From: Acidimicrobiia bacterium | GTDB lineage: Bacteria > Actinomycetota > Acidimicrobiia > Acidimicrobiales > Bin134 | Direction of reading: 5' to 3' | NCBI GenBank assembly: GCA_022822265.1 | Contig: JAJECA010000048.1 | Location: forward strand, 1 to 64,000 | Length of the DNA stretch: 64,000 nt | Part shown: in pieces, positions 1 to 15,440 of the stretch | Position numbering within the stretch: the stretch's first letter is position 1 | How the letters are laid out: each line of letters opens with the position of its first letter | The notes under the pieces: model-generated | What the model was told of the DNA's origin: nothing | Database searches by the model: none | Seen by the model: only the letters and a program-made list of their open reading frames with translations | Program-made: the position numbers and the translations under genes

Positions 1-69
1 TTGGGCGTGGCCCACATCGACATGCCCACCACCCCTGAGCGCATCTGGCAGGCCCTGGCCGCGGTCTAG
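1..69 (+). CDS. C-terminal tail of a CoxL/xanthine-dehydrogenase-type molybdopterin subunit (partial)
   Basis: The first 22 codons of the window are open in frame 1 and end at TAG (67-69). The peptide (LGVAHIDMPTTPERIWQAL, then AAV) aligns closely with the last residues of the complete CoxL-like protein at 21235-23484 ([19 protein letters not shown]). It is therefore read as the extreme C-terminus of a second molybdenum-hydroxylase large subunit of the aerobic CO dehydrogenase/xanthine dehydrogenase family. The rest lies before the window, so cofactor and active-site motifs cannot be seen and the substrate is unknown. It is convergent with the amidase gene, with a 57-bp gap and no clear terminator hairpin. 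Confidence 0.75.
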   Translation: MGVAHIDMPTTPERIWQALAAV

Positions 70-126
70 CCCCTGTAGATGTTGAACGAGAGTAGGGGGA
101 GTGGGGGCTCGTGACGTCGGCTTGTT

Positions 127-1179
127 CTATTCCATGGTGGGATCATCGCAGGGTATGGAGGAAGATGGTGGATCGTATGACCGGGGTTCGTGTATGAATC
201 CGGAGTAGGTGCGGTCGGTGTGTAGGTATGTGTCGATGGCGTCGGCGGTCGCTCGAGCGGCAACCCTGATGTACTCGGGTGTGGCGAATAGCCTTGCTTC
301 GTCGGGGTTGGAGAGGTACCCGTACTCAATAAGGGCAGACGGAGTCGAAGGGTGGCGCAATATGCCGTAAGTGTCGTTGCCGTCAGGCTGTAGAACCCGA
401 AGCACTCCTGCGTCAGGCAGGCGGCTCCATGAGACATCGTCGAATGAAGAGAGCCCTGCAATTATCTCTTCGTAAAGCAGCCCCCCAAGGCGAGCGGAGT
501 CGACTCGGGCTTGTTGGGGTGTCGCAGATTGCACGTACACTTCGCTTCCTGGAATATCGACAATATTCCAGGTAGGTGCGTTGTGGTGAATGGATATCAG
601 CACATCGGCTCCGAGGACGTCAGCGAAGGCGGCTCGGGCAGATAGGCGAACTCCGTAATCGAAGGTACGTGTAGTGGCGGCGGGTATGCCGCGGTCGGCT
701 AACTCCTCAAGTACGGCGCGGCTGAGCTTCAGATTCAAGTCCTTCTCAAGAAGGCCATTGGCCCCAACTGCGCCGGTGTCCCAGTGTCCCCCGTGGCCTG
801 GATCAACAACGACTCGTATTCCATCGATGGGTTCTCCTTTGGAGATTTGGGCTGTGTTGCCACACGGTGTCAGCACCGAATAACCAGCATCGGTGCGTTG
901 GATAACGACGACAGGGATTCCCAATGGTGTGAGCACTGCGACCGGATCGTTGCCACTGGTGTCTATCTGCAGCCCATTCCCCTCATTTTCTTGCAAAGTA
1001 ACATCTGATGGCGCGGAAGATGACAAATCTGGTTGCACCATCGGTCGTGGATCCGCCTCAATTGGTGTAGCCGTAGTAGGTGTCGAATTCTCAGCATGAT
1101 CTCCGCAAGCTGCAAGGAGCGCAAGCATGCCGAATACAACGACGCTCGAAGTTCGCTTTACTTTGCGTTGACACAGCAT
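127..1179 (-). CDS. N-acetylmuramoyl-L-alanine amidase (Amidase_3) lipoprotein
   Basis: Predicted zinc amidase that cuts the amide bond between N-acetylmuramic acid and the stem peptide of peptidoglycan. The N-terminus is a lipoprotein signal with lipobox LLAAC (Cys25), followed by a Ser/Thr/Pro-rich linker. The catalytic domain runs from about residue 120 to 330. It shows the Amidase_3 zinc ligands: His129 in DPGHGG, Glu145 in LLEKDLNL, His198 or His199 in SIHHNA, and the late glutamate in ALIEYGYLSN. The gene lies 21 bp after the dioxygenase-like lipoprotein and appears to be the last gene of a four-gene operon led by the response regulator. That placement suggests envelope maintenance under two-component control (inference). 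The ATG start directly precedes the positively charged signal-peptide n-region. Confidence 0.9.
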   Translation of the reverse strand: MLCQRKVKRTSSVVVFGMLALLAACGDHAENSTPTTATPIEADPRPMVQPDLSSSAPSDVTLQENEGNGLQIDTSGNDPVAVLTPLGIPVVVIQRTDAGYSVLTPCGNTAQISKGEPIDGIRVVVDPGHGGHWDTGAVGANGLLEKDLNLKLSRAVLEELADRGIPAATTRTFDYGVRLSARAAFADVLGADVLISIHHNAPTWNIVDIPGSEVYVQSATPQQARVDSARLGGLLYEEIIAGLSSFDDVSWSRLPDAGVLRVLQPDGNDTYGILRHPSTPSALIEYGYLSNPDEARLFATPEYIRVAARATADAIDTYLHTDRTYSGFIHEPRSYDPPSSSIPCDDPTME

Positions 1180-1200
1180 GAGACTTCTCAGAGTCGACGT

Positions 1201-2130
1201 TCAAACTCGCACAAGCAGAGAGATCGAGTAGCCATCCGCGTTTGATCCTGTGACTGTTGCCAGTTGGTCTTGCCAGCCGTCGCGGAAGACGCTGTCAGAA
1301 GCGAGGGTCAGTCGGGCCAAGTCTCTGGCGCTGTTGCCGTACCGGCTGTCGATATAGGCGTTCTCGCAGTCTGCTCGGGGAATGGCCAGTTGGCTCGTCT
1401 TGATGGCGCTGTTGCTGGTGACAGCATTGCTGAGGCTGTCATGAACCTCGAAGTGGCAGTGAGGCCACCTACCGCGATAGCAGCCGGGAAACACGGTATT
1501 GAAGACGACCTTGCCAGCACCGTCAGCGGCCTGGACTCCTCGCAGAAAGTTCTGGTCGGAGATCTCGTAAATCGAGTAGCGGCCGTCAGCGGTGCAATGC
1601 CACAGATAGATCGAAGCGCCGGGGAGAGGACTCCCGGTGCTGGCATCCACCACAGTTAGATGAATGGCGGTGGGGATGCCCTGTGCTGTGCCGCTGAATT
1701 CACCGACGCTGCTGGTGAGATCGGCCCTGACAATTCCATCTATGGCCAGGACATTTGGGCCGTTTGTGCCATTCGCAGGAAAGGGGCCAGCTGTTTCGCT
1801 CGGTATCTCCGCCCCTGGGTTCGCGATGTTGCCGGGTAGATCGACAGCCGGTGTTGAAGTGGCCTCTGCGGTGGGTTGGCCCGTGGCTGTGATGGTTGGC
1901 GATGCGGTGGGTTGGCCCGTGGCTGTGATGGTTGGCGATAGGGTGGGTTGGCCCGAGGCCTGTGTAGGAGTTTGGGGAATCACCGCGGGATTGCTGTTGG
2001 TGCCACACGCGGCCACTACGCCTGCGAGGCTGGCACCACCGATCAAACGAAGAGCTAGACGTCTGTCAATTAAGTGGGGCAAATCCCTGGAAAGACCCCC
2101 GAAGTCATCATGGTCTTCGATTTCTGTCAT
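1201..2130 (-). CDS. Exported intradiol ring-cleavage dioxygenase-like lipoprotein
   Basis: 309 aa. The N-terminus carries twin arginines (Arg23-Arg24), a hydrophobic stretch and lipobox VVAAC (Cys42), so export by Tat or Sec with lipid anchoring is likely. Residues about 50-95 form a low-complexity linker with a tandem GQPT-SPTITAT repeat. The C-terminal half is a catechol-dioxygenase-type beta-sandwich. The expected Fe(III) ligands can be placed: a tyrosine in the LWHCTADGRYSIYE segment, and Tyr, His and His in CYRGRWPHCHFEVHD. Cytosolic intradiol enzymes open catechol or hydroxyquinol rings; the substrate of the exported branch is not well defined. The ATG overlaps the kinase stop codon (ATGA), so the gene is translationally coupled to the sensor kinase, which is unusual company for this fold. 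Confidence 0.82.
   Translation of the reverse strand: MTEIEDHDDFGGLSRDLPHLIDRRLALRLIGGASLAGVVAACGTNSNPAVIPQTPTQASGQPTLSPTITATGQPTASPTITATGQPTAEATSTPAVDLPGNIANPGAEIPSETAGPFPANGTNGPNVLAIDGIVRADLTSSVGEFSGTAQGIPTAIHLTVVDASTGSPLPGASIYLWHCTADGRYSIYEISDQNFLRGVQAADGAGKVVFNTVFPGCYRGRWPHCHFEVHDSLSNAVTSNSAIKTSQLAIPRADCENAYIDSRYGNSARDLARLTLASDSVFRDGWQDQLATVTGSNADGYSISLLVRV
1868..1939. repeat. Two perfect 36-bp tandem repeats in the lipoprotein linker
   Basis: Two identical adjacent 36-bp units lie at 1868-1903 and 1904-1939, followed by a diverged third start (GGTGGGTTGGCCCG) from about 1942. They encode the repeated GQPT-SPTITAT linker of the dioxygenase-like lipoprotein. The unit is a multiple of three, so copy-number change would alter linker length without shifting the frame. 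Confidence 0.9.
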
Positions 2131-3659
2131 GGTTTCTCCTTGTCTTGAGTGGGTTCCTCGCCCTCTCGCATTGGAGTTTGTGGAGGGCGCAGCGGAAGGG
2201 TGATGGTGACCGAGGTCCCGAGGTCGGGCTCACTGGCCACATCAAGGCTGCCTCCATGGGCCTGAACCACTGTGTCGGCAATCGACAGGCCGAGGCCGCT
2301 CCCGCCGTGATCTCGCGAGCGCGATGGATCGGCGCGGTAGAAGCGCTCGGTAATCCTGGCGAGATGATCGGAGTCGATGCCCGGACCGTTATCGCTGATC
2401 TCGACGACCACGTTGTCGTCCAACCGGCGGGCATCGATGGTAACGGAGGTGCCGGGTGGAGTATGGACAGCGGCGTTGTTGACGACGTTGGCCAATACTT
2501 GGCGCAGTCGATCCTCGTCGCCGGTAATGCTGATGTCGGGCTCAATGGTGGCGGCGAATACGTGATTGGGCGCAGCAACTCTGGCGTCGGCCTTAGTGTC
2601 GGCGATTATCGTGCTGAGGTCTATCTCGCTGAGGCCGATTGGGCGTTCCTGGTCGAATCTGGCCAATGTCAGCATGTCTTCAACCAGGCGGTCGAGACGC
2701 TGGGCCTCCTGTTCGGTACGACGCATGGCGTCTTCGAGGTCGCGTCCTTCAGCTAAACCCCCTTGACGGTACAGCTCGGCATAACCCCGGATGGTGGTAA
2801 TGGGGGTCCGCAGTTCATGGGAGGCGTCGGCCACAAATCGGCGGAGCCGCTCCTGGGATTGGGCCTGGCTGTCCACCGCCGTCTTGATTCGGCCCAGCAT
2901 GACGTTGAGTCCCCGGGCCAATGCACCGGCCTCGGTTCCCACGGTCTTAGGTTCGGGAACGCGAAGGGAGAGGTTGCCGTCAGCGATCTCAGTCGCGGCG
3001 TCGGTCATAGCTCGGATGGGTTGGATGCCGAGTCGGATGACCCACCAGGCGACGGCGGTGAGAACCAAGAAGATTGAGCCCGCGCCGAAGACCACAAACT
3101 GGATCAATCGATCGACGGTCTCTTCAACGTCGGTCAAAGGCAGGGCCCGAACAAAGATGATGTCGCGAAGTTCAACGGCCAGTACCCGGTACCTAACATC
3201 GTCGTCCACAGCCGAAGCGGTGAACGGCTCGGAGATACGATTGACGACGGTGTTCCAGTCGAGATCGGGTGGGCTGTATGCCTGATCCGGTAGGTTCGGC
3301 TCGAATAACGTTTCTAGGCCGCGATTGCGATGGACAGCGCCTTCGAACATATTGCTCAAACGTCCCGGCTGCTCACGCGACTGTAGATTGCTTTCATGCG
3401 ACGGGAGATGGTTGCCCCGCGCAGACTCATCGTGGCGTCTATCGAAGAGACCGTCGCCTAATCGTCCGTCGCGATCGATGTCAGCGGTGGCGACGAGATG
3501 TTCGTCTACCTGATCGACGAGATGATTGCGGGTATTGGACACGATTGCCCATGCCGCTGCTGCCAGGATGATTGCGACTACGGCAACTCCGGCAAGCAAG
3601 CGAGCTCGAAGCGACAGCGACCTCCTCACCGCTGGCCTCTCAATGTCAGGCAGAGCCAA
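2127..3659 (-). CDS. Two-component sensor histidine kinase
   Basis: 510 aa membrane kinase. TM1 is at about residues 20-41, followed by an extracytoplasmic sensor region (about 42-186), TM2 at about 187-209 and HAMP at about 210-262. HisKA holds the phosphoacceptor His281 in SHELRTP. The HATPase_c domain has an N box (NVVNNAAVH), G1 (ISDNGPGID) and G2 (GGSGLGLSI). It lies 7 bp after the response-regulator gene and overlaps the lipoprotein gene by 4 bp (ATGA). It should phosphorylate the adjacent OmpR-type regulator. The signal is unknown. The sensor loop is charged and histidine-containing and has no recognised sub-domain. Confidence 0.95.
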   Translation of the reverse strand: MALPDIERPAVRRSLSLRARLLAGVAVVAIILAAAAWAIVSNTRNHLVDQVDEHLVATADIDRDGRLGDGLFDRRHDESARGNHLPSHESNLQSREQPGRLSNMFEGAVHRNRGLETLFEPNLPDQAYSPPDLDWNTVVNRISEPFTASAVDDDVRYRVLAVELRDIIFVRALPLTDVEETVDRLIQFVVFGAGSIFLVLTAVAWWVIRLGIQPIRAMTDAATEIADGNLSLRVPEPKTVGTEAGALARGLNVMLGRIKTAVDSQAQSQERLRRFVADASHELRTPITTIRGYAELYRQGGLAEGRDLEDAMRRTEQEAQRLDRLVEDMLTLARFDQERPIGLSEIDLSTIIADTKADARVAAPNHVFAATIEPDISITGDEDRLRQVLANVVNNAAVHTPPGTSVTIDARRLDDNVVVEISDNGPGIDSDHLARITERFYRADPSRSRDHGGSGLGLSIADTVVQAHGGSLDVASEPDLGTSVTITLPLRPPQTPMREGEEPTQDKEKP

Positions 3660-3666
3660 GGGAGTG

Positions 3667-4356
3667 TCATTGGAGTCGAAGGGTGTAGCCGACGCCTCGG
3701 ATTGTGTGGATGAGTTTAGGCTCGGCGGTGTCTATCTTCTTGCGAAGGTAGCCGATATAGGTCTCTACAACTCCGCCGTTGCCGTTGAAGTCGTACTGCC
3801 AAACATGGTCGAGAATCTGGGCTTTCGACAGGACGCGGCCTTGGTTTACCAGCAGGTAGCGCAACAGGCTGTACTCGGTGGGCGACAGCGACACTTCGAC
3901 GCCGGCCCTGGTCACTCGGTAGGCATCGTCATCCATGGACAGATCGGCCAGATTGAGCACGCTTGATGCGCCTGGCTTCCCGGCGCGGCGCAGAATCGCC
4001 TCCACACGGGCGACGAGTTCGTCAAGGCTAAAGGGCTTTTGGAGATAGTCGTCGCCCCCGAGAGTCAGACCTCGCACCTTGTCTTCGGTCTCGTCTTTCG
4101 CGGTAAGAAACAGGATTGGCGTCTGGTTGCCGTCGGCTCGGAGTCGTCGGCAAACCTCAAAGCCGTCGAGGTCGGGCATCATTACATCCAAGATGATCAG
4201 ATCTGGCATTTCGCGAGCCGCGGCGGTGAGCGCCTCTCTTCCGTCTCGGAATTCGCTTACCTCAAATCCGTGATAGCTCAACGCGGCCCGGAGCATTGAC
4301 CGGAGGTTGGCTTCATCGTCAACCACAAGGAGGTGGTGTCCCTTCACGACCTCCAT
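3667..4356 (-). CDS. OmpR/PhoP-family response regulator
   Basis: 229 aa. The receiver domain (about 1-120) has the acidic pair Asp13-Asp14, phosphoacceptor Asp57 in ILDVMMPDLDG and the conserved lysine in YLQKPFS. A winged-helix DNA-binding domain follows (about 130-229, ending GVGYTLRLQ). The frame stays open 25 codons upstream, but the start chosen is the ATG at 4356. It has GGAG 7 nt upstream and begins exactly at the receiver fold (MEVVKGHHLLVVDDE). It heads the operon regulator-kinase-dioxygenase lipoprotein-amidase. Across a 128-bp divergent gap lies the DUF2271/PepSY module, which this regulator may also control (see the direct repeat at 4444-4461). Confidence 0.95.
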   Translation of the reverse strand: MEVVKGHHLLVVDDEANLRSMLRAALSYHGFEVSEFRDGREALTAAAREMPDLIILDVMMPDLDGFEVCRRLRADGNQTPILFLTAKDETEDKVRGLTLGGDDYLQKPFSLDELVARVEAILRRAGKPGASSVLNLADLSMDDDAYRVTRAGVEVSLSPTEYSLLRYLLVNQGRVLSKAQILDHVWQYDFNGNGGVVETYIGYLRKKIDTAEPKLIHTIRGVGYTLRLQ

Positions 4357-4367
4357 CGTGGCACTCC

Positions 4368-4381
4368 GTTCTGAGAAGAAC
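4368..4381. promoter_or_regulatory. Inverted repeat upstream of the response-regulator start
   Basis: GTTCT-GAGA-AGAAC is a perfect 5-bp-arm inverted repeat 11 nt upstream of the regulator ATG and next to its GGAG. On the minus strand it contains TTCTCAG (4377-4371), the same heptamer found in the direct repeat at 4455-4461. Autoregulation is a possible role; this rests on sequence pattern only. Confidence 0.3.
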
Positions 4382-4443
4382 CTGAGTGTCAGCCGGGAAT
4401 TGCTTGGTGATCGAACGGATCCTCCCGGCAAACTCGGCAGCCG

Positions 4444-4461
4444 TTCTCGGCAAATTCTCAG
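4444..4461. promoter_or_regulatory. Candidate response-regulator box: 7-4-7 direct repeat TTCTCGG-N4-TTCTCAG
   Basis: Two heptamers matching at 6 of 7 positions are separated by 4 bp, giving an 11-bp period. This is the tandem half-site layout used by OmpR/PhoP-family dimers. It lies 23 bp upstream of the DUF2271 lipoprotein start, in the divergent region shared with the response regulator. No binding data exist; the role is inferred from geometry and position. Confidence 0.35.
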
Positions 4462-4484
4462 GTTGAGGCTCTAGACCTCCGAGG

Positions 4485-5252
4485 ATGCCCGCCTCAGTTG
4501 GACCCGATGACCCAGGTGAATTCGAACCCCGTCTGGTTGAGGTGTCACGCAGGGCGTTTCTTCGCCGTAGTGCCGTGGCTGGGGCCATAGTGGCATTCCC
4601 TGTCCTTGCTTGCAGCAAGAGCGATGCCGAGGTTTTCGCAGGCTCAAGCTCGGCGACCGTTGCGCCGAGCGAGCCCGCGCCAACCGAACCCGCGGCGGCG
4701 ACAAATCTCGAGCCCGCGCCAACCGAACCCGCACCTGGTGACGTCGAACCAACACCAACCGAGCCCGCAGTGCAGTCCACCGGGCCAACAGCGGCCATGT
4801 TCCCGACTGGTGCCGAATTGGCGGTGGCATTTGCCTATGTGGCGGGTGCTGGCGGCCGGGGTCGGATCCTCAATCCCTACGTTGCAGTGTGGGTTGAAGA
4901 TCACGCCGGCAACCTCATCGACACCATAGGGCTCTGGTTTCTGCAAGAGCAGAAGGGAACCCGGTGGCTCAATGACCTACGGCGCTGGTATTCGGCCAGC
5001 AATCAAGCTTCCGATACCTCCATGTCCGGTGCAACCCGGCCAGCGGGTGCCTATTCGGTTGTTTGGGACGGTACCGATTTGTCTGGGAACCCGGTAGAAC
5101 AGGGCGATTATTTCCTCTTCATCGAAGCTGCCCGAGAGCACGGTCCCTACAGCATCACCAGCACGCCGATCACCATCGGCAGCCAACCCTTCTCTGTTGC
5201 GCTGAGCGACAACGTTGAGATCGCCGACGCCTCAGCGGAACTGATCCTCTAG
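4485..5252 (+). CDS. DUF2271 lipoprotein with an SGAT flavinylation motif
   Basis: 255 aa. The N-terminus has a Tat-like motif (SRRAFLRR, residues 21-28), a hydrophobic segment and a lipobox ending at Cys43. Residues about 55-100 form a Pro/Glu/Thr repeat linker. The C-terminal DUF2271 domain (about 105-255) contains SGAT at 181-184, followed by RPAGAYSVVWDGTD and FIEAAREHG. SGAT has the form of the motif to which ApbE attaches FMN through a phosphoester to threonine (here Thr184). ApbE and a PepSY-type membrane protein are the next two genes, which supports an extracytosolic flavin-carrying redox protein. The ATG at 4485 follows GAGG directly, an unusually short spacing, so an in-frame GTG closer to the signal peptide remains possible. 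Confidence 0.85.
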   Translation: MPASVGPDDPGEFEPRLVEVSRRAFLRRSAVAGAIVAFPVLACSKSDAEVFAGSSSATVAPSEPAPTEPAAATNLEPAPTEPAPGDVEPTPTEPAVQSTGPTAAMFPTGAELAVAFAYVAGAGGRGRILNPYVAVWVEDHAGNLIDTIGLWFLQEQKGTRWLNDLRRWYSASNQASDTSMSGATRPAGAYSVVWDGTDLSGNPVEQGDYFLFIEAAREHGPYSITSTPITIGSQPFSVALSDNVEIADASAELIL

Positions 5253-5255
5253 CTA

Positions 5256-5966
5256 ATGCACGAAGGCCTCTCCCCAACAGCGCCCGCAGAGAGACCCGCA
5301 CCAAGTCCGACGACTCCGAACTCTGAAGGGCCGATGCAAACGCACAATGGAGGGCGCGGCGCGCGCCAGCCTGCCAGTCGGCTGAAGCGGGCCACCGACT
5401 TATGGGCCCGCCGCCTTCACGTTTATACAAGCATGATTGCCCTCCTCGTGGTGTTGTTCTTCGGACTCACCGGCATAACCCTGAACCATCCCGACTGGAC
5501 GTTCGGCGACGATGTCTCGGTGTCGAGTCACAACGGCCGGTTCCCGTTCGAGGCCTCAGGCGTCGACGGTACGGTGGAGTTCTTGGCCATTGCCGAGTAT
5601 GTCCGGGGCGAATACTCAGTGTCTGGCACTGTGGACAACTACAGCGTCGTCAACGGGCGGGGCTCCATTGCCTTCAAGAAACCGGGCTACTCCGCCGACC
5701 TGTTCTTTGACGCCGAGGCCAGCACTTACGAGCTTACGGTCACCCAACAAGGGTTCGTGGCGATCATGAACGACGTCCACAAAGGACGAGACGCCGGTCC
5801 CCTGTGGAAATGGGCTATCGACATTTCAGCAGGGTTCCTGGTCGCTATCTCGATCACGGGGTTGGCGATGCAGCTGTTCTTGCGCCGACGCCGATTCGTC
5901 GCTTTGACCGTCGCAGCGGCCGGCGGCCTGATTACTGTCTTCGTGATACTGGTCACAATCAGCTGA
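5256..5966 (+). CDS. PepSY-associated TM-helix membrane protein
   Basis: 236 aa with three predicted membrane helices (about 59-77, 187-208, 214-234) and a soluble loop between the first two, the PepSY_TM-like layout. Histidines sit at helix boundaries: His55 in RRLHVYTS, His78 in LNHPDW and His175 in MNDVHKG. They are candidate haem or quinone-site residues by analogy with related electron-transfer membrane proteins (inference). The gene starts 3 bp after the DUF2271 gene. It probably passes electrons across the membrane to or from the flavinylated lipoprotein. The first 26 residues are Pro-rich, and an ATG at 5334 just after GAAGGG is an alternative start. Its stop overlaps the convergent apbE stop. 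Confidence 0.82.
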   Translation: MHEGLSPTAPAERPAPSPTTPNSEGPMQTHNGGRGARQPASRLKRATDLWARRLHVYTSMIALLVVLFFGLTGITLNHPDWTFGDDVSVSSHNGRFPFEASGVDGTVEFLAIAEYVRGEYSVSGTVDNYSVVNGRGSIAFKKPGYSADLFFDAEASTYELTVTQQGFVAIMNDVHKGRDAGPLWKWAIDISAGFLVAISITGLAMQLFLRRRRFVALTVAAAGGLITVFVILVTIS

Positions 5967-6852
5967 TTGAGCCGAATCTCTCCCCCCAATGGGGATCGAC
6001 GGCAGGGGTGCCTTCTCGATCTACGACTAGTCCGGCTAGTTCGTCTGATTCGGCCAGCCAGTCAAGCGCTGCGGGGGGGTCGAGAATGCAAGCGACGGTG
6101 GCCGCGACATCTGCGGTAATGGCGTCGTCCGCCACGACCGACACGCTGGCCGGACCCAATGCCGGCTGGCCCGACCGGGGATCGATGACGTGGCTGTACC
6201 AGGCATCGCCAATCCGAAACCCGCGCCGTGATGAGCCGCTGGTGGCTATCGCCTGGTCTTGTAGGTGGATCACTACAAGAGGCGGCTCGTTGTCGTATGG
6301 GCGCAGTGGATTTTCGATTCCTACTGCCAGACCTGGGCTGCCCCGGTGCAAAACGTCGCCGCCCGCGTTCAGGCTGATGGCCTCGATTTCGAAACGCCGA
6401 AGAGCTGCTTCGACCACGCGATCGACGATGTAGCCCTTGGCGATAGCGTTCAGGCTCAGCCGAGTACAGTCCCCCAACGGCACCGGCACGCGGTCGAGCA
6501 ACTCGAAACGGGGTTCGGCGATTGATGCCGCCTCCTCTGCCAAATCGGCGGCACCCGGCATGCACCCGGCTTGTTCGGCCCGGCGCCACATTTGGGTCAG
6601 TTGGCCGGTGAGAGGGTTAAACAGGCCCGCCGAACGACGATGCCACGCCAGCGCCAGACCCATCAGCTCGCAGAACTCATCACTCGGGTGGAGAACCTCT
6701 CCGCGACGCCAGCGGCATAATTCGCTGTCGTCGTCAAAGACGCTGAACACCCCTTCAAGTCGAGCCACTTGCCCAGCCACGAATTCGTCGACGGCTCGAG
6801 ACATCAGCTTGTCACCGCCCTTGATCCGCAGATCCAGCACTGTGCCCAACAA
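5959..6852 (-). CDS. apbE: FAD:protein FMN transferase (ApbE)
   Basis: 297 aa. Transfers FMN from FAD to a threonine of extracytosolic target proteins, using Mg2+. Family motifs are present in order: LLGTV near the N-terminus, LNAIAKGYIVD, SLNAGGDV, ATSGSSRRGF, SHVIDPRSGQP and the metal-binding VVADDAITADVAAT. The neighbouring DUF2271 lipoprotein with its SGAT motif is the obvious substrate. No secretion signal is evident, which is odd for an enzyme acting on exported targets, although some ApbE proteins act before export. The start is unclear. The frame offers TTG at 6852, or ATT at 6903 preceded by AAGGA at good spacing, but no ATG or GTG before the upstream stop at 6928. It ends convergently with an 8-bp overlap at the palindrome TCAGCTGA. 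Confidence 0.92.
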   Translation of the reverse strand: MLGTVLDLRIKGGDKLMSRAVDEFVAGQVARLEGVFSVFDDDSELCRWRRGEVLHPSDEFCELMGLALAWHRRSAGLFNPLTGQLTQMWRRAEQAGCMPGAADLAEEAASIAEPRFELLDRVPVPLGDCTRLSLNAIAKGYIVDRVVEAALRRFEIEAISLNAGGDVLHRGSPGLAVGIENPLRPYDNEPPLVVIHLQDQAIATSGSSRRGFRIGDAWYSHVIDPRSGQPALGPASVSVVADDAITADVAATVACILDPPAALDWLAESDELAGLVVDREGTPAVDPHWGERFGSIS

Positions 6853-6927
6853 GCCGTGGCACCGGAATTGGAATTCGCGCTGGTTGTCGCCTTGTTCGCT
6901 AATGGTTCTGTCCTTGGGTGCCGCTTT

Positions 6928-8145
6928 CTATTCCATGTCCAGGCCCAGCAGCTTGATGGCGTTGCCGCGGGCGATCTTGTAGACCGCTTCGGGGTCGAGG
7001 TGGCCGAAGAGGCGGGTGGCCACTTCTTGGGTGTTGGGCCAGGTGCCGTCGGCGTGGGGGTAGTCGGTCTCGAAGGTGATGTTGTCGATGCCGACCCGGT
7101 CGAGCAGGTCGATGCCCACGCTGTCTTTGAAGAAGCAGCCGTATACCTGGCGGTAGTAGTAGAACGACGGCGGCTCGGGGATGTTGCGCCGGGCCTGGCT
7201 CCACCCCTGGTGAGTAACCCATACGTCGTCGGCCCGCTCCAGGGCGTAGGGGATCCACCCGATCTGGGCCTCTGCGTACATCAGCTTGAGGTCGGGGTAG
7301 CGGTGCAGCATGCCGGAGAACAAGAAATCGACCATTGAGGCCGCGCTGTTGCAGAAGATAAGCGAGGCGGTCACCGCGTCGGGGGCGTCATCGGCGGTGG
7401 ACACGGTGCGGGTGCCCGACCCGATGTGCATGCACACCACGGTGCCGGTCTCGGCACAGGTCTGGAAGAACGGGTCCCAATAGCCCGAGTGGATGCTGGG
7501 CAAGCCCAGCCAGGTGGGCAACTCGCTGAACGCCACTGCCCGCACGCCCCGCTCGGCGTTGCGGCGGATCTCGGCGGCGGCCAGCTCGGCATCCCACAGC
7601 GGCACCAGGCAAAGAGGGATCAGCCGGCCCCCGGAGTCGCCGCACCACTCTTCGACCATCCAGTCGTTGTAGGCCTGCACGCACAGCAGCGACAGCTCCT
7701 TGTCTTGGCGCTCGTTGAAGAGCTGGCCGCAGAACCGGGGGTAGTTGGGGAAGCACAGCGAGGCGTCGGTGTGGTTCATCTCCATGTCGGCGATGCGGGC
7801 CTTCGGCTGCCAGCAGCCGGGGCGCATCTCGTCGTAGGTGATGCCCTCGGTGGACAGCTCGTCGTAGGCATACCCGGCCGCGGCGATTAGCCGCTTCACT
7901 GAATAGGTGTGGTCTTCATAGAGCCACCAGGCCACGTTGCGGCCCTCGGTGCCGGGGCGCTCCCGGTAGGTGCCGCCGTCGAGCACCACCTCGCCCTGGG
8001 GCAGGTACTCGATGCGCGGCCCGACGTCGCGGTACTTGGCCGGCAGCCGGCTGGTCCACAGGTGCGGGGGCTCCACCACATGGTCGTCCACGCTGATGAT
8101 GCGGGGCATCTCGGTGGCGACTGGAGCATCGGCGGCCACGGTCAT
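6928..8145 (-). CDS. Amidohydrolase-2 family metal-dependent hydrolase
   Basis: 405 aa TIM-barrel hydrolase of the amidohydrolase_2 (ACMSD-like) family, which hydrolyses or decarboxylates cyclic and aromatic carboxylates. Features: VDDHVVEP near the N-terminus (the usual first metal histidine of HxH is Asp), MHIGSG mid-protein, YAEAQIGWIPYALER, and FETDYPHADGTWPNT with the late catalytic Asp. The ATG overlaps the flavodoxin stop (ATGA), so the two are co-translated. Two paralogues lie at 8649 and 15866. The substrate is not predictable; the surrounding LLM, cupin and hydrolase genes suggest catabolism of cyclic compounds. Confidence 0.88.
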   Translation of the reverse strand: MTVAADAPVATEMPRIISVDDHVVEPPHLWTSRLPAKYRDVGPRIEYLPQGEVVLDGGTYRERPGTEGRNVAWWLYEDHTYSVKRLIAAAGYAYDELSTEGITYDEMRPGCWQPKARIADMEMNHTDASLCFPNYPRFCGQLFNERQDKELSLLCVQAYNDWMVEEWCGDSGGRLIPLCLVPLWDAELAAAEIRRNAERGVRAVAFSELPTWLGLPSIHSGYWDPFFQTCAETGTVVCMHIGSGTRTVSTADDAPDAVTASLIFCNSAASMVDFLFSGMLHRYPDLKLMYAEAQIGWIPYALERADDVWVTHQGWSQARRNIPEPPSFYYYRQVYGCFFKDSVGIDLLDRVGIDNITFETDYPHADGTWPNTQEVATRLFGHLDPEAVYKIARGNAIKLLGLDME

Positions 8146-8588
8146 ACTGAAGTCTCCGACATGTCAGGGGCACCCACCGCAGCCAGCACGTCGTCGACGA
8201 ACTCGGGGACCTGCACATCGAGCTGCGTCTTGTTGAACGCCTGGCGGTGGATGACGTCGGCGCCCTTGTAGGCCAGAAGGTCGGCAATCTGATCGATGCA
8301 GTTGCCCGGATACCACTTGTAGGTGGCGAATGCGGCCACCGGCTTGTGGTGCAGCGAAGGCAGCGTCATCAGTTTGGCCGTGCCGCCGGGCCGATGCCCG
8401 AACAGCACCAGCCCGTCTACCCAGGTGCCCACGGCCAAAAGGTCGGCCTCGGCAATCTCGTTGAGCTTCAACCCGTGCACCGGTCGAACCGCCACCTCAT
8501 AGCCAGCCCCCCGCAGCTCCCCGCCGATCATCTCCGCCGCCCGCTGGGTATTCCCCGTGCGGCTCTCAAAGATCACCACTGCCTTCAT
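8142..8588 (-). CDS. Flavodoxin-like FMN protein
   Basis: 148 aa. The FMN-phosphate loop SRTGNTQRA (residues 9-17) at the end of the first strand is typical of flavodoxins. It is followed by VGTWVDGLVLFG and FATYKWYPGN, which match the regions contacting the isoalloxazine ring. It is probably a small cytosolic electron carrier or flavodoxin-family oxidoreductase. Its stop overlaps the amidohydrolase start (ATGA), making a two-gene operon, though a hydrolase does not need electrons, so the functional link is unclear. Confidence 0.87.
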   Translation of the reverse strand: MKAVVIFESRTGNTQRAAEMIGGELRGAGYEVAVRPVHGLKLNEIAEADLLAVGTWVDGLVLFGHRPGGTAKLMTLPSLHHKPVAAFATYKWYPGNCIDQIADLLAYKGADVIHRQAFNKTQLDVQVPEFVDDVLAAVGAPDMSETSV

Positions 8589-8648
8589 GTCTGGAACCTC
8601 ACGGCTTGACTTCTAGCAGCTACGCCTCCCAAGTGCCACGATGGTGGT

Positions 8649-9770
8649 ATGGGCAAGTACGGGTATTACGTGATCGACTCCGACGGGCACGGGGGTGAGC
8701 CGCCCCAGTGGCGCCACGGGATAAGCGCCGAGTGGCGGCCCCAGATGGTGGAGTACGTGGCCAAGATGAAGGAGATCTACGGCGACCTGCCGGGGGCCGG
8801 ATCGCCGGTACACACCGAGGACCAGCAGAACTACGGCGAGTACGCCGCCGGCGAGCTGGACTTCGAGACGCCGCTACAGCGGGAGGGCATGGCCGTGCCC
8901 GGTCCCCGGATGACCGACATGGATCTCGAGGGCATCGATGTGACCGTCATGTTCCCGCCGGGATCGGGCGAGGAGTGGGCGCTGGGCGACCCTGGCTTTT
9001 CCGCCGAGCTGTGCCGACTGCTGAACGACGCCCGGGCCACCTATGCGGCTTACGACCCCACGCGCTTGAAGCTGGTGGCCAAGCTGCCTTTGATCGACCC
9101 GGAGCGGGCCGCCGCCGAACTGGAGCGGTGCTTCACCCAGTATCCGGACCTGTTCGTGGGCATGGTGACCGCCCAGCACGTGTTGGACCGCAACCTGGAC
9201 CACCCGGCCCTCGACGCAGTGTGGGAAGTGGCCGACAGCCATAGCGCCGCGGTGTGCGTACATGGCGGGGGACAGGCACCCGACCAGGTGCCCATCGTGT
9301 TGGACCGCTACGACACCCGGCTGGAGAAGCACGCCGTGACCCACCCGTTCGGGGCCATGCTGGCCACGATGAACTTCACGGTGGGCGGGATCTTGCACCG
9401 GTTCCCCAACATGCGAGTGGGCATCATGGAGGCCGGGTGCGGCTGGCTGCCGTTTTGGCTGGAGCGCCTCGATGAGGAGTACGAGCTGATGCCCGACCAG
9501 GCCCCCATCCTCGATCGCAAGCCGTCGGAGTACTTCTTGTCGGGGCGGTGCTTTGTGGGGGTGGAGTCAACCGAGTCGGCCCTGCCCTATGTGATGGATC
9601 AGGTGGGCGACGACATCCTGTGCTACTCCTCGGACTACTGCCACTGGGACTGCGACTTCCCCCACTCGGTGAAGCTGCTGGTGGAACGCGACGACCTCAG
9701 CGACGAGCGCAAGCGCAAGATCCTCACCGACAATCCGGCCAAGCTCTTCGGGGTCCCGGTTCCGGCTTAG
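8649..9770 (+). CDS. Amidohydrolase-2 family metal-dependent hydrolase
   Basis: 373 aa, paralogue of the genes at 6928 and 15866. It carries DSDGHGGEP at the N-terminus (Asp in place of the first HxH histidine), CVHGGGQ, the MEAGCGWLPFWLERLDEE barrel strand and the catalytic-Asp region SSDYCHWDCDFPHS. Predicted to hydrolyse or decarboxylate a cyclic carboxylate. It is transcribed divergently from the flavodoxin gene and meets the cupin gene convergently with a 4-bp stop overlap. No Shine-Dalgarno is visible before the ATG. Confidence 0.87.
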   Translation: MGKYGYYVIDSDGHGGEPPQWRHGISAEWRPQMVEYVAKMKEIYGDLPGAGSPVHTEDQQNYGEYAAGELDFETPLQREGMAVPGPRMTDMDLEGIDVTVMFPPGSGEEWALGDPGFSAELCRLLNDARATYAAYDPTRLKLVAKLPLIDPERAAAELERCFTQYPDLFVGMVTAQHVLDRNLDHPALDAVWEVADSHSAAVCVHGGGQAPDQVPIVLDRYDTRLEKHAVTHPFGAMLATMNFTVGGILHRFPNMRVGIMEAGCGWLPFWLERLDEEYELMPDQAPILDRKPSEYFLSGRCFVGVESTESALPYVMDQVGDDILCYSSDYCHWDCDFPHSVKLLVERDDLSDERKRKILTDNPAKLFGVPVPA

Positions 9771-10234
9771 TCGGTCCTCGGGCCGAACCAGTCGGGTAAG
9801 TCTACGGGTGGGTGGGGGAGTTCGGTGATGCCGCGCTCTTCGAGGATGGCGGCGTGCTCGGCTTTGTCGGCGGGGGCGGGGCGGGAGTCGCCGAAGTAGA
9901 TCTCCAGGATCTCGGCGCCTTGGTCGCTCACCTTTATGGGGCCGAACGTGGCCAGGTGGGGGAGCTTGATGAGGGTTCCGGCCCGGCACACCTCCTGGTC
10001 GAAGGTGACCTCGCCGTCGATGACGAAAATGAAGTGGTCGCTGTTGTGGCCGTGGCGTTCCAGCACCAAGCCGGGGTCGTAGCGGGTGTGGTACACGGCT
10101 CGCTCGGGGATCAGCTCCAGCATCTTCAGCCACACCGACACCCGGCGGCCGTCGGCGTGCTGCTGGCTCTTCACCTCGGCGAAGTCCATGTCTTCGGCGT
10201 GGATGTAGGACACCTGGGGCTGCGGTTCGGTCAT
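9767..10234 (-). CDS. Cupin-domain protein
   Basis: 155 aa single cupin. The metal motif is at HGHNSDHFIFVIDGE: two histidines of H-x-H, then His in place of the usual Glu, then Gly after six residues. A second conserved stretch is at AGTLIKLPHLATFGP. It may be a small metal-dependent dioxygenase or isomerase, or a binding protein. It appears to be the last gene of the (-) operon LLM-hydrolase-LLM-cupin, 25 bp after the preceding LLM gene, with GGAG 7 nt before its ATG. Confidence 0.85.
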   Translation of the reverse strand: MTEPQPQVSYIHAEDMDFAEVKSQQHADGRRVSVWLKMLELIPERAVYHTRYDPGLVLERHGHNSDHFIFVIDGEVTFDQEVCRAGTLIKLPHLATFGPIKVSDQGAEILEIYFGDSRPAPADKAEHAAILEERGITELPHPPVDLPDWFGPRTD

Positions 10235-10259
10235 GACTGGGCTCCAAAAAGGTTTGCGA

Positions 10260-11552
10260 TCACCGGAACATCTTGAGCGCCCGGCTGTCTGAGGTGTCCT
10301 CAGGACGCTCGTCGGCCGCTTCCTCGATCGGGTTCAGCTCATCGGGCGGGGTGAGGGCCAAGCTCACCGGGGTGTCCAGCTCGATGGGGTCGTGCAGGCC
10401 GAGCTCATCGCCGATGTCGCGCAGCGCGGGCAGCACCTCGGTGCCCATCAGCTCGATGCAGCGCAGGGAGTCGTCGTGGTTGACGCCGCCGTCGTTGCCC
10501 CACAGCATGAGGATCGACGGGCGGCAGGTCTCCAGCACCACCCGCAGCTCGGCGATCACCTCGTCGGGGGTGCCGGCCACGATCTCTCGGGCGGCCAGCT
10601 GCTGCTCGAACGGGGCGGCCCGGGAGCCCGTCACCTGCGAGTTGGCCATCTTGGCGTAGTCCAGCCGCCGGGCCGACGAGCCGTAGCCCGACGGGCTCAC
10701 CCAATAGGGGTGGCCGATGCCGGTGAACTCGCCCTGCATCCACATGAACTCCCGGGCGTTGTCCCGGGCCTTGTCGCCGTCTTCTTGCACGTGGACTCGC
10801 AGTAGATAGCCCCGGTTCTCCGGTCCGGGCTCATAGCCCACCGCCAGCGCGGCCTGGTCGTAGATCTGCCACAGATCGCCGGTGAGGTGAAGGGGGGTGT
10901 TGAGCGAGATGTAGGGGTAGCGGTGCTGGGCGGCCCAACGGATGGTCTCGGCGCTGAACACGCCGGGCACCCAGATGCGGGGGTGGGGCTTCTGGAGCAC
11001 CCGGGCCCAGGGATTGACCACCCGGTACTGGAAGTGCTCGCCCTCCCAGGAGAACGGGCCGTCGTCGGTCATGGTCTTGACCAGCAGGTCGTGGGCCTCG
11101 TTGAACCGCTCCCGGTTGTAGGCCGGGTTGGCGTTGAGGCACACCGACTCTTGGCCTGCGCCCCGCACGATGCCCGAGATGAGACGGCCCTTGGAGATCA
11201 TGTCGATCATGGCGATTTCCTCGGCGAACATCAGCGGGCTGTCGTAAGTGGGCAGCGGGTTGCCGAGCTGCACGATCTTGGCGTTCTCGGTGATGGCGGC
11301 CAGGATGCTCGACATCACGGTGATGCGGGCCTGCATGCAGAACGGGGCGTTGTGGTGCTCGTTCACCATGATCCCGTCGAAGCCCACCTGATCGGCCAGC
11401 TTGTACTCCTCGATGCGCTCGTTGAACAGGCGGCTGCCCTCCACCGGGTCGTAGTACTTGTTGGAGAACATCACCGAGGTGAAGCCCTCCTTCAGGCCCT
11501 CGTCGGCCGGGTAGGCGCTCATGGGCTGCTCGGTGAAATACGACAGGAACAT
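10260..11552 (-). CDS. LLM-class flavin-dependent oxidoreductase
   Basis: 430 aa luciferase-like TIM-barrel monooxygenase or F420/FMN oxidoreductase. The fold is recognised from MVNEHHNAPFCMQ, the ARITVMSSILAAITE strand, GNPLPTYDSPLMFAEEIAMIDMISKGRL and VPGVFSAETIRWAAQH. The start is the ATG at 11552 (MFLSYFTEQPM), sharing one base with the alpha/beta hydrolase stop (TGATG). The reading frame stays open far upstream but that part is a shadow of the hydrolase. It probably oxidises a hydrophobic organic substrate in a cyclic-compound pathway; flavin versus F420 use cannot be decided here. The C-terminal tail after about residue 395 is acidic and looks disordered. Confidence 0.9.
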   Translation of the reverse strand: MFLSYFTEQPMSAYPADEGLKEGFTSVMFSNKYYDPVEGSRLFNERIEEYKLADQVGFDGIMVNEHHNAPFCMQARITVMSSILAAITENAKIVQLGNPLPTYDSPLMFAEEIAMIDMISKGRLISGIVRGAGQESVCLNANPAYNRERFNEAHDLLVKTMTDDGPFSWEGEHFQYRVVNPWARVLQKPHPRIWVPGVFSAETIRWAAQHRYPYISLNTPLHLTGDLWQIYDQAALAVGYEPGPENRGYLLRVHVQEDGDKARDNAREFMWMQGEFTGIGHPYWVSPSGYGSSARRLDYAKMANSQVTGSRAAPFEQQLAAREIVAGTPDEVIAELRVVLETCRPSILMLWGNDGGVNHDDSLRCIELMGTEVLPALRDIGDELGLHDPIELDTPVSLALTPPDELNPIEEAADERPEDTSDSRALKMFR

Positions 11553-12355
11553 CAGCTTTTTCCTCCGGTGATGATGGCGGCGAGTGATTCGGGGGCTTCC
11601 AGGTCGACGGCGTGGCCACAGTCGGGAACCACCTCCAGTCGGGCGTCGGGCAGGGCCTCGACGTAGGCGCGGGCGCACTCCATGGGTACCACCGCGTCGC
11701 TTTCGCCCCACACCACCAGGGCGGGAACGGCGACGCCGCCCAGGAGAGGCCTCAGCCGGCGGTTGTACATGTAGGGCTTCCACCCCACCCGGGTGGTCAT
11801 CTCCCGGTTCATGTCCCAGGCGACCAGGGTGTCGTCGCCCAGCGGATGCTCCTCGGATTCGTCGCCGTTGCGGGGGTAGACCGCCTCGAAGGCCTCGGTA
11901 CTGGAGAAGGCGGCCTCCACATAATTTGAGTGCGACACCAAGAACTGGTCGTAGATGCGGCCATTTTCGGGCAACAGCCCGGCCGCTCCCACCAGAATGA
12001 GCCGCTTGAGCACCTCCGGGGCCATGGTGGCCAGCTCGGCCGCCACCCACCCCCCGAACCCGCAGCCCACTAGCTCCACAGGGCCGAGGTCTTTGGCCCG
12101 CAGCCACTGGCCCACCAACAGGGCCAGGTCCCGAGGATGGCGAGCCCAGTCGGGCCGCTCCGACCCCTCGGTCCCGCCGTAGCCCGGCAAATCAAGCGCA
12201 TGAACGGTGTAGTGGGCAGCCAGGGCCTCGTGAACGGGCATCCACCCGGGGTTGCCGAACGAGTGGTGCAGCATAACCAGCGGATCCCCCGACCCCCCAG
12301 TGAACTCCCGCATTCCCAGTCCGGCCACGGTGGTCGTCACAGTCTGCATCGCCAT
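11552..12355 (-). CDS. Alpha/beta-hydrolase-fold protein with the nucleophile Ser replaced by Gly
   Basis: 267 aa with a standard alpha/beta-hydrolase layout: oxyanion region LHHSFGN, DLPGYGGTEG, acid Asp220 in WGESDAVVP and His248 in DCGHAVDLEAP. The nucleophile elbow, normally G-x-S-x-G-G, reads G97-C-G-F-G-G102, so the serine position is Gly99 (codon GGG). It therefore cannot be a classical serine hydrolase unless Cys98 acts. Cofactor-free dioxygenases, C-C lyases and non-catalytic members of this fold are alternatives. It lies between two LLM genes in one operon, 21 bp after the upstream one and overlapping the downstream one by 1 nt, consistent with one shared pathway. Confidence 0.88.
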   Translation of the reverse strand: MAMQTVTTTVAGLGMREFTGGSGDPLVMLHHSFGNPGWMPVHEALAAHYTVHALDLPGYGGTEGSERPDWARHPRDLALLVGQWLRAKDLGPVELVGCGFGGWVAAELATMAPEVLKRLILVGAAGLLPENGRIYDQFLVSHSNYVEAAFSSTEAFEAVYPRNGDESEEHPLGDDTLVAWDMNREMTTRVGWKPYMYNRRLRPLLGGVAVPALVVWGESDAVVPMECARAYVEALPDARLEVVPDCGHAVDLEAPESLAAIITGGKS

Positions 12356-12376
12356 GACGCTATACCGCTTGCGCCA

Positions 12377-13453
12377 TCAGCCGCCGGGGTTGGCGGGGAG
12401 GTGGTCGAATTTTCCGGTGGGGCGGGTGCGGGCGTACTCCTCCACGATGGGGCGGAGTTGGGTGGGGCTGGCGCCGTGGAGGATGACGCCGTCGCAGCCG
12501 AGGTCGAACTGGCCGCGGATCTTCTCGACGCACTGGGCGGGGGAGCCGGTGGCGGCGGGGGCGAGCCATGCCTCGGGGATGAGGGTGGCGATGTGCTCGA
12601 GCTGCTCGGTGGTGGCCACTTGGTCGATGGCGCCTTGGAAGTTGGCCACCAACTCGTCGGCCAAGAACCGTTCCAGGGTGGCGGGATCCCAGTTGTTGGT
12701 GCGGGCCATCAGCTCGGGGTAGCCCTGGAGGTAGGTGGCCATGCGGCCCACCGTCTTCTTGAGCCTCACGTCTTCGGGCAGGTGGTCGCCGATGGTGGCG
12801 AAGCAACTCCACACTTTCACCGCATCCGGATCTCGTCCTGACTCTTCGGCCGACTGTTTGACGGCGCCCACCACTCGGGCGGTGGTCTCGTCGGTGAAGA
12901 ACGTGTGCAGCACCACCGCGTCGAAGCAGCGTCCGCCCAAAGCCAGGGAGTTGGGGCCGAAGGCGGTCAGAGCCATGGGGATGTGCGCGCTGCTGGCGCC
13001 CATCAAGGTCAGCACCGGATAGTCCCCGATCGGGCCCTCGTGGTTGAAGATGGGCTCGCCTTGCCACAGCCGGCGCATGACACCCACGAAGTCCTCCATT
13101 TGGGCGGTGGTTATGGGGGGCAGGCCGAAGGCTTGGGAGAGGCGGTCGACCCCTCGACCGAGACCCAGACAGAAGCGGCCGCCGGTGAGCTTGTGCATGG
13201 TCATGGCGTATGCCGCGGTCACCACAGGATGGCGGGTGTGGTGGTTGGTGGCCGCGGTGGCAATACCCATGCTTTCAGCGGCCACACCGACCGCCCCCGA
13301 CAAGGTGGCCGCCTCTTTTATGTTGAACCGCTCGCTGATGAACACATTGCCAATGCCCAGCTCTTCGGCTTGGCGAACCTCGTCGATCAGCTCCCGAGGC
13401 GATTCCGGCGCCCCGGCCAGGGTGTAGAAGCCGAGCTCGTTCATCTGGGTCAT
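12377..13453 (-). CDS. LLM-class F420-dependent oxidoreductase (MSMEG_2249-like)
   Basis: 358 aa. The N-terminus (ELGFYTLAGAPESPRELIDE, then GNVFISERFN) matches the actinobacterial F420-linked subfamily named for MSMEG_2249. FCLGLGRGVDRLSQAFGLPP and GFDAVVLHTFF-like barrel segments follow. The start is the ATG at 13453 with a strong AGGAGGAG 7 nt upstream; the longer in-frame extension has no such site. It is the first gene of the LLM-hydrolase-LLM-cupin operon. Role: probable F420H2-dependent reduction or oxidation of an organic substrate, identity unknown. Confidence 0.9.
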   Translation of the reverse strand: MTQMNELGFYTLAGAPESPRELIDEVRQAEELGIGNVFISERFNIKEAATLSGAVGVAAESMGIATAATNHHTRHPVVTAAYAMTMHKLTGGRFCLGLGRGVDRLSQAFGLPPITTAQMEDFVGVMRRLWQGEPIFNHEGPIGDYPVLTLMGASSAHIPMALTAFGPNSLALGGRCFDAVVLHTFFTDETTARVVGAVKQSAEESGRDPDAVKVWSCFATIGDHLPEDVRLKKTVGRMATYLQGYPELMARTNNWDPATLERFLADELVANFQGAIDQVATTEQLEHIATLIPEAWLAPAATGSPAQCVEKIRGQFDLGCDGVILHGASPTQLRPIVEEYARTRPTGKFDHLPANPGG

Positions 13454-13544
13454 TTGGGACTCTCCTCCTGGTATCGCGGGCGGGTTGCAGGTTAGGTCAA
13501 GTTGCTGGTTGAAGACGCTGCCGGAAACTGTCACCGGGGGTCCT

Positions 13545-13550
13545 TAGGAT
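13545..13550 (+). promoter_or_regulatory. Leaderless-type -10 hexamer for rmuC
   Basis: TAGGAT lies 8 nt before the rmuC ATG (13559), with no Shine-Dalgarno between. This fits TANNNT leaderless promoters and supports the chosen start. Confidence 0.55.
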
Positions 13551-13558
13551 GCGGGCCT

Positions 13559-14965: not shown

Positions 14966-14972
14966 GGAGCAG

Positions 14973-15440
14973 CTAGCGATCAGTCAGTAGGCGTGGGGGG
15001 ATCAGCCAGTCGAGTTGGCCGGTGTTGTCGGGGTTGAGGCTGACCCGGGCCAGCGTTGCGGTGGGCATCCGCAGGTGCGCGCCGGTCAATCGGCAAATGG
15101 CGGTCGAGGTGGTCGGTTCGTGGCCGACCAGCATGGTGACCGGTGCCCGCCGCTGGCAGGCCAGGGCGATCATGTGGTTGACCGATCCGTAGTACAGCTC
15201 CTCGGCGGTCTCGGTTGGACAATTCCAGTTTCCCGATTCTTTGGCCAGTTCGAGGGTTTGGCGGGTCCGGGTGGCGGGCGAGTACAGCACCAGATCGGGC
15301 ACATGGCCGGCCTCAGCCAGAAAGCTGCCCACCGCCGCGGCGGCTCGGCGTCCCCGCTCGTTCAGTGGCCGCTCGATGTCGTTGGAAGCCCCTGCATGCC
15401 AGTCGGATTTGGCGTGCCTCAAGAAGATGACCGCTGACAT
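14973..15440 (-). CDS. SixA-like histidine phosphatase
   Basis: 155 aa histidine-phosphatase (phosphoglycerate mutase-like) fold. The catalytic signature LRHAKSDW is at residues 7-14, with the second basic motif VGHEPTTS and the conserved LYSPATRTRQTLE. It resembles SixA, which removes phosphate from phosphohistidine proteins, but small-molecule phosphatases share the motif. It is transcribed divergently from glbO, and the -10 elements of the two genes overlap. Confidence 0.9.
   Translation of the reverse strand: MSAVIFLRHAKSDWHAGASNDIERPLNERGRRAAAAVGSFLAEAGHVPDLVLYSPATRTRQTLELAKESGNWNCPTETAEELYYGSVNHMIALACQRRAPVTMLVGHEPTTSTAICRLTGAHLRMPTATLARVSLNPDNTGQLDWLIPPRLLTDR

Follow-up and report, generated by a model that had tools for sequence, protein, structure and literature searches.

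Gene clusters encoding a PepSY-like membrane protein, a DUF2271 protein and the flavin transferase ApbE have been described and linked to iron reduction (Meheust et al., 2021; PMC8238504). A DUF2271 protein expressed with its ApbE was flavinylated, and a change of the Thr in its [ST]GA[ST] motif abolished the modification (PMC8238504). Later work added AlphaFold models and cited the structure of a PepSY protein in which there are two haem sites (PMC11334425). The Caulobacter homologues are Fur targets that matter under ethylenediaminetetraacetic acid (EDTA) (PMC12004947), and such genes have been tied to iron limitation (PMC12004947; PMC7190382); another PepSY protein, CrpH, supports copper oxidases (PMC13038864). 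Here, we consider a DUF2271–PepSY–ApbE locus in 64,000 nucleotides of an Acidimicrobiia bacterium (positions 1-64000 of contig C19 of genome G000, within a 3.48-Mb assembly; hereafter the window), whose closest named relatives are metagenome-assembled genomes labelled Acidimicrobiia. The original prediction for this DNA placed flavin mononucleotide (FMN) on Thr184 of the DUF2271 protein and led electrons across the membrane through the PepSY protein; this central inference is a restatement of the published system. What we add is a proposed order of flavin attachment in the cytosol followed by twin-arginine translocation (Tat), an invariant Thr/Ser at position 184, positioned repeats, and an apparently transferred block of seven genes.

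We lean, by a modest degree, towards reading the locus as a self-contained PepSY-like flavin electron-transfer module in which FMN would be attached in the cytosol before Tat export. The wider proposal, that in these actinobacteria and Deinococcus the DUF2271 flavoprotein for extracellular electron transfer is completed in the cytosol and exported by Tat with no exporter of flavin adenine dinucleotide (FAD), and that in the genus of the window this arrangement moves from species to species as a single block with its own sensor, is close to an even call that tips barely in favor; in the actinobacteria, the exported flavoprotein would be lipid-anchored. The gene families, signal sequences, conserved sites, repeats and block can be read from the sequence; the covalent flavin and where it is attached, export by Tat, the haem, the outward direction of electron flow and the acceptor are inferred and may be combined as follows. 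The HAMP kinase would read a signal, and the OmpR-type regulator would bind tandem repeats and turn on DUF2271 and PepSY. ApbE, having no signal peptide, would use cytosolic FAD to attach FMN to Thr184 of the folded DUF2271 protein inside the cell. Tat would export the folded holoprotein, and lipidation at Cys43 would hold it beside the PepSY protein, which is probably a b-type cytochrome (His55, His78, His175) and would supply the FMN with electrons drawn from the membrane or cytosol. These could then pass to an acceptor outside the cell, for which Fe(III) is the likeliest candidate, a choice taken from published relatives only, because there is no iron gene in the block.

The predicted flavin site and its partners

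The gene order is as originally described: PepSY starts (5256) 3 bp past the DUF2271 stop and lies between DUF2271 and ApbE, ApbE is convergent with it and overlaps it by 8 bp (5959-5966), and the response regulator and kinase genes, both supported by Pfam, are divergent from DUF2271 (Table 1). The co-occurrence of the three families fits the published PepSY-like flavinylation system (PMC8238504). The DUF2271 protein carries SGAT, as described, and its N-terminus holds a twin-arginine motif, SRRAFL, ahead of a lipobox (SRRAFLRR...VLAC43), the Cys43 of which is invariant in 33 aligned sequences. The model (mean predicted local distance difference test score, pLDDT, 74) contains an Ig-like beta-sandwich at ~105-254; a fold search returned nothing at E 0.001 and only weak beta-sandwich matches, FlgD included.

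Table 1. Positions of the features discussed, in window coordinates unless residues are named
Feature	Position	Strand	Basis or remark
DUF2271 protein, 255 aa	4485..5252	+	Pfam PF10029 E 2.4e-29, plus FlgD_ig match
S181-G182-A183-T184 of DUF2271	residues 181-184		predicted FMN site; motif position
PepSY_TM_like_2 membrane protein, 236 aa	5256..5966	+	PF16357 E 4.8e-37, PF03929 1.9e-9
ApbE flavin transferase without signal peptide	5959..6927 (listed open reading frame 5959-6852)	-	PF02424 E 1.9e-51, PDB relatives
OmpR-type response regulator	3667..4356	-	Response_reg 1.4e-32, Trans_reg_C 3.7e-25
HAMP histidine kinase	2127..3659	-	Pfam HisKA, HATPase_c, HAMP
Tandem repeat TTCTCGG-N4-TTCTCAG	4444..4461	+	candidate response-regulator site, 13/14 matches
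-10-like hexamer TAGACC	4472..4477	+	10 nt past repeat, 7 nt before DUF2271 ATG
Second repeat CACTCAG-N4-TTCTCAG	4371..4388	-	toward response regulator, 12/14 matches
Seven-gene block, ~6.86 kb	70..6927	.	between two conserved genes; absent there in relatives
Intradiol dioxygenase-like protein	1201..2130	-	Dioxygenase_C (PF00775) 2.4e-8; PDB relatives 5vg2, 6bdj
N-acetylmuramoyl-L-alanine amidase lipoprotein	127..1179	-	Amidase_3 6.1e-33; lipobox LAAC

Conservation was assessed on one scan of a species-level genome collection, which gave 55 loci, 40 of them (L023-L062) with a DUF2271 found by profile and nearly all labelled Actinomycetota or a subgroup; 15 short matches (L063-L077), mostly labelled other phyla, are excluded from all counts. 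The label of L051 (Verrucomicrobia) looks doubtful, as does that of L047 (Bifidobacterium breve). DUF2271 is paired with PepSY at 37 of the 40 loci and stands alone on the available DNA in L034, L052 and L057; the regulator is adjacent in five lineages, and 27 loci are without it. The family match and this recurrence rule out DUF2271 as a chance motif. A set of 36 distinct DUF2271 proteins results when the fusion L051, the five near-copies of the window (L023-L027), and L038 and L058 (identical to L022 and L015, respectively) are set aside and the copies of the window, L015, L021 and L022 are included.

At the acceptor position, 184, 33 of these proteins have Thr and the other three have Ser. 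The expectation that SGAT itself would be conserved among orthologues was not borne out: strict [ST]GA[ST] is found in 16/36, and SSAT is the commonest variant (12/36); these counts were made per sequence and supersede those by alignment column, which hide insertions. Asp stands four residues before the [ST] in 15/36, including D177 of the window, and at the published spacing, three before, in 7/36; Glu is nearby in 3, and neither residue in 11. The window motif is thus D-x-x-x-SGAT where the published one is D-x-x-SGAT, a point against Thr184 as the FMN acceptor, for which the suitable and constant residue speaks. A change of the Asp is reported to have minor effects, and Gly to Ala to leave about half of the flavinylation (PMC12052999), and therefore the site is plausible, though not standard, as a predicted FMN site. 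On two Vibrio plasmids (L081, L082), where PepSY and DUF2271 occur and the site reads TSAT, the profile detected no ApbE within 4.5 kb on either side.

The PepSY protein, whose two Pfam matches lie above cut-off, has the three predicted hydrophobic helices (~53-79, 186-208 and 212-235 by hydropathy; model pLDDT 83). The boundary histidines of the original prediction are His55, His78 and His175, at or near helix ends; with near-copies counted, 41/41, 40/41 and 41/41 aligned sequences share them, and they are candidate haem ligands. There are three conserved histidines, as opposed to two sites of two His in the published PepSY structure. For a FoxB-like fold, a structure search gave no match at E 0.001 and a PDB sequence-profile search none.

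The ApbE contains ATSGS, SHVIDPRSG and TAD, which by our own reading would supply the published catalytic Ser, His and Asp. Its homology continues upstream beyond 6852, where the frame stays open as far as 6927. The first ATG, GTG or TTG codons are the TTG TTG pair of the GT motif, and the conserved N-terminus lies upstream of every such codon; ATT at 6903-6901 on the minus strand, with AAGGA 7 nt ahead, is a possible rare start codon. In the near-copies L023-L027, ATG replaces the second TTG of this pair. Where ApbE is complete and not fused (28 loci), it is convergent with PepSY in 26 (exceptions L056, L061). It was not found on the DNA examined at L029, L034, L037, L048, L052, L054 and L057; for L029 and L057, this DNA included 6 kb downstream. 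On an Acidovorax plasmid (L139), a gene annotated as sulfite reductase subunit alpha (6974-8359) follows PepSY-DUF2271-DUF4198-ApbE and is a possible cytosolic electron donor.

Export signals and the place of flavin attachment

Leaders were sought from any ATG, GTG or TTG as a 12-residue window with mean hydropathy >= 1.8 in the first 40 residues. The test was applied to 29 distinct complete ApbEs (window, L015, L021, L022 and 25 of L023-L062, with L051 kept and the partial L050 excluded), and no hydrophobic leader was found in 27 of them, the exceptions being L030 and the fusion L051. In the window, the ApbE frame has no hydrophobic stretch between the upstream stop codon and the domain. As a control, 22 of the 28 ApbE matches of the phylum were used, fragments L106 and L111-L115 being left out; nine score >= 2.8, so the test detects leaders, and the threshold also flags L103 and L108, apparently spuriously. 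Five other actinobacterial ApbEs without signal (L100, L101, L102, L107, L110) were seen in host genomes without FMN_bind matches.

The predicted substrate, by contrast, carries export signals. RR-x-hydrophobic-hydrophobic stands before the lipobox in 28/36 distinct DUF2271 proteins, RR-x-H-L in 3 and neither in 5. The window genome encodes TatC (1.8e-63) and a single ApbE, and no FMN_bind match was found in it. From the combination of a leaderless ApbE with a twin-arginine DUF2271, we infer cytosolic attachment of FMN and Tat export of the folded lipoprotein. The four Deinococcus plasmid copies with a complete N-terminus all have a twin-arginine DUF2271 without lipobox, and their ApbEs score < 1.8 in the leader test (1.67 and 1.74 for two of the four). 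Two variants of the signals were also noted: L062 (4307-6435) has tandem DUF2271 frames, one with a twin-arginine signal and the other without, and L051 joins ApbE and DUF2271 in a single reading frame that bears a Sec-type signal, with PepSY next downstream.

Several observations weigh against attachment in the cytosol and against the relay as drawn. The leader calls rest on hydropathy and not on a trained predictor. Leaderless ApbEs are not specific to this system, as 11 of the 22 phylum controls lack a leader and two more are doubtful. In the proteobacterial plasmid clusters, ApbE is leaderless in 7/7 that have one (highest score 1.76), and their DUF2271 is Sec-type as judged by eye, the automatic leader search having failed on several. 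Leaderless ApbE and Tat are therefore not strictly paired; the proteobacterial enzymes would act before export or exit by another route. In L021 and L039, a leaderless ApbE accompanies a DUF2271 without a canonical twin-arginine motif, and in L033 and L036 one with RR-x-H-L. The DUF2271-linked ApbE of Meheust and co-workers was used 'signal peptide-truncated' (PMC8238504), so some carry signals, as does the fusion L051. For the PepSY protein, a structure search with the model gave no cytochrome among the 50 PDB matches listed and none at E 0.001.

These points bear on two alternatives. The relay might be the same with flavinylation outside the cell, ApbE hitch-hiking on Tat-exported DUF2271 or leaving by an unknown route and using exported FAD. 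It is favored by the export of most characterized ApbEs (PMC12052999), by the leaderless ApbEs that accompany a Sec-type DUF2271, for which modification before export is harder to envisage, and by L051, which exports transferase and substrate as a single chain. We nevertheless regard it as unlikely, as 27 of 29 distinct ApbEs have no leader from any possible start. The cytosol is also rich in FAD and Mg. In Klebsiella, moreover, a cytoplasmic ApbE flavinylates a soluble fumarate reductase (PMC12052999); Paracoccus has one predicted cytoplasmic ApbE.

More doubtful still is an ordinary published Fe(III)-reducing PepSY-like system, in which the place of flavin attachment is unremarkable and the missing ApbE signal is a quirk of the gene start or a weak prediction. 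Every part of the locus fits the published one (PMC8238504), but the open frame upstream of ApbE in the window, read from one stop codon to the next, contains no hydrophobic stretch, and the leaderless pattern is repeated in 27 of 29 distinct loci. Cytosolic attachment followed by Tat export would be the simplest account of this pattern. A leaderless ApbE with a Tat-exported DUF2271 was not found in the literature at title and abstract level or in the passages of the papers cited.

Proposed regulation and apparent spread of the seven-gene block

The original prediction had the neighboring regulator control the module, and tandem repeats ahead of DUF2271 (Table 1) lend it some evidence. The start of the regulator gene, given as TTG 4431, is most likely ATG 4356, because the receiver domain begins there. 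The kinase has two transmembrane helices (~14-44 and 182-215 by hydropathy) with ~140 residues in between, and no Pfam sensor domain was matched. Activator sites can replace the -35 box in PhoB/OmpR-type promoters, and the layout of repeat and -10-like hexamer resembles such sites. Orthologous regulators (72-75%) and kinases (46-50%) occupy the same divergent position in L030, L034 and L036, where the repeat ahead of DUF2271 is CTCTCAG-N4-TTGCCAG in L030 and TTCTCAG-N4-TTCCCAG in L034 and L036. As read from the sequence, it is followed after 10 nt by TATTTT, TACCAT or TACCGT and after a further 6 nt by the start. The scores are 13 of 14 for the window, 11 for L030 and 13 each for L034 and L036, at the same distance within 1 nt; the repeat thus stands at one place in four of the five lineages with an adjacent regulator. 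Of 500 mononucleotide (not dinucleotide-preserving) shuffles, the observed score was reached by 0 for the window, 5 for L030, 0 for L034 and 0 for L036.

Against this stand three points. The consensus was derived from the very sequences that were scored, which is why the fixed position outweighs the score. Among the 27 DUF2271 loci without a linked regulator, the best score, 11, occurs once and equals that of L030. In the fifth locus, L037 (regulator 56%), the repeat is found on the other strand only and not at that place, with its DUF2271 start probably set too early in this comparison. A genome search with <= 1 mismatch gave 6 matches and the reversed pattern 2; a regulon elsewhere is not claimed, as each of the five matches that fall elsewhere than in the window is within a predicted reading frame or borders on one.

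The unit extends beyond the originally proposed 3667-6852: the block runs from ~70 to 6927, the ApbE frame being open to the latter position, and comprises amidase, dioxygenase, kinase, regulator, DUF2271, PepSY and ApbE. In a sample of 22 genus genomes, one per species, DUF2271, ApbE and PepSY_TM_like_2 are present in the same six and in none of the other 16. In 1-kb bins with gaps omitted, identity between the window and the other five carrier species is 98.6-99.9% over 1-7000, 93.2-96.4% in bin 7001-8000, and 83.5-96.0% where aligned over 8001-15000 in the four carriers whose contig reaches that far. At fourfold sites, identity is 97-100% across the block genes and 67-88% in the next four genes. 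The flanking genes lie 25-194 bp apart in four of the five non-carriers examined (of 16); the fifth, G007 (L172, 12617-13973), has only an amidase homologue, 78% identical, at the block site, perhaps an older or partial state. The block was apparently transferred recently between species as one unit and probably spread by recombination in the shared flanks. No integrase or transposase was found among its seven genes. Such spread supports a functional unit, although genes can also hitch-hike. In Deinococcus sp. D7000, a plasmid (L144, 3346-5566) carries ApbE-DUF2271-PepSY flanked by transposase genes, and therefore the module may move there too.

The dioxygenase segment aligned to 5vg2 retains Y..PGCY..R..H.H, which may include the Tyr/Tyr/His/His iron site of the Dioxygenase_C fold. 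A repetitive Thr/Pro-rich linker (window ~1875-2000) is 24 residues longer in L011, L012 and L014. The original prediction had offered this protein as a possible partner; it does travel with the block, and outside the genus it is rejected as a general one. That the relay serves the dioxygenase, extracellular catechol cleavage (e.g., of catecholate iron carriers) going together with flavin-driven iron reduction under the shared kinase, is improbable, for although its start overlaps the kinase stop, its N-terminus has a twin-arginine motif (DRRLAL) and lipobox (VAAC) of its own and it moves with the other genes, no relative was found by tblastn (E 1e-8) at 39 loci outside the genus (L028-L062, L015, L016, L021, L022), including L030, L034 and L036 with the regulator pair.

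Comparison with described flavin relays

If true, a signal-less ApbE with a Tat-type substrate would be a route without FAD export, and this arrangement is the point worth testing. The locus also places a PepSY/DUF2271 system with its own two-component pair in Actinomycetota, and the all-or-nothing block offers a naturally delimited unit for finding the electron acceptor.

The signal-less Klebsiella pneumoniae ApbE, which flavinylates in the cytosol, resembles what is proposed for the window, but its substrate is a soluble cytoplasmic enzyme (PMC12052999), whereas the substrate in the window would leave the cytosol once modified. Listeria FmnB/EetB-FmnA likewise provides a flavinylated exported protein for electron export in a Gram-positive bacterium; unlike in the window, the ApbE-like FmnB acts outside, and FAD is exported by an energy-coupling factor (ECF)-type transporter (PMC9973259). 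Caulobacter CCNA_03155-03159 combines PepSY, DUF2271 and a flavin-dependent reductase at one locus tied to iron, but is Fur-regulated and includes DUF4198 (PMC12004947).

The nearest system is that of PMC8238504, with which the window shares PepSY (PF16357/PF03929), DUF2271, ApbE and a predicted transmembrane flow to a flavinylated, exported DUF2271 protein. Of the features that define membership in the cited passages, a PepSY protein in a flavinylation cluster, a DUF2271 signal with lipobox (here by pattern, not by the predictor of that paper) and SGAT are all present. ApbE export and lipidation, typical but not universal, are not found in the window frame up to the stop. The frequent, though not defining, partner DUF4198 was not seen among the 8 neighboring proteins scanned (127-8145), nor was an iron transporter gene, which tells against the iron-reducing relay. 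The published system is described as broadly distributed in Gram-negative bacteria, whereas the window belongs to Actinomycetota, and it differs further in its signal-less ApbE, its twin-arginine lipoprotein DUF2271, its OmpR-type pair linked through a common promoter region and its apparently transferred seven-gene block (PMC8238504).

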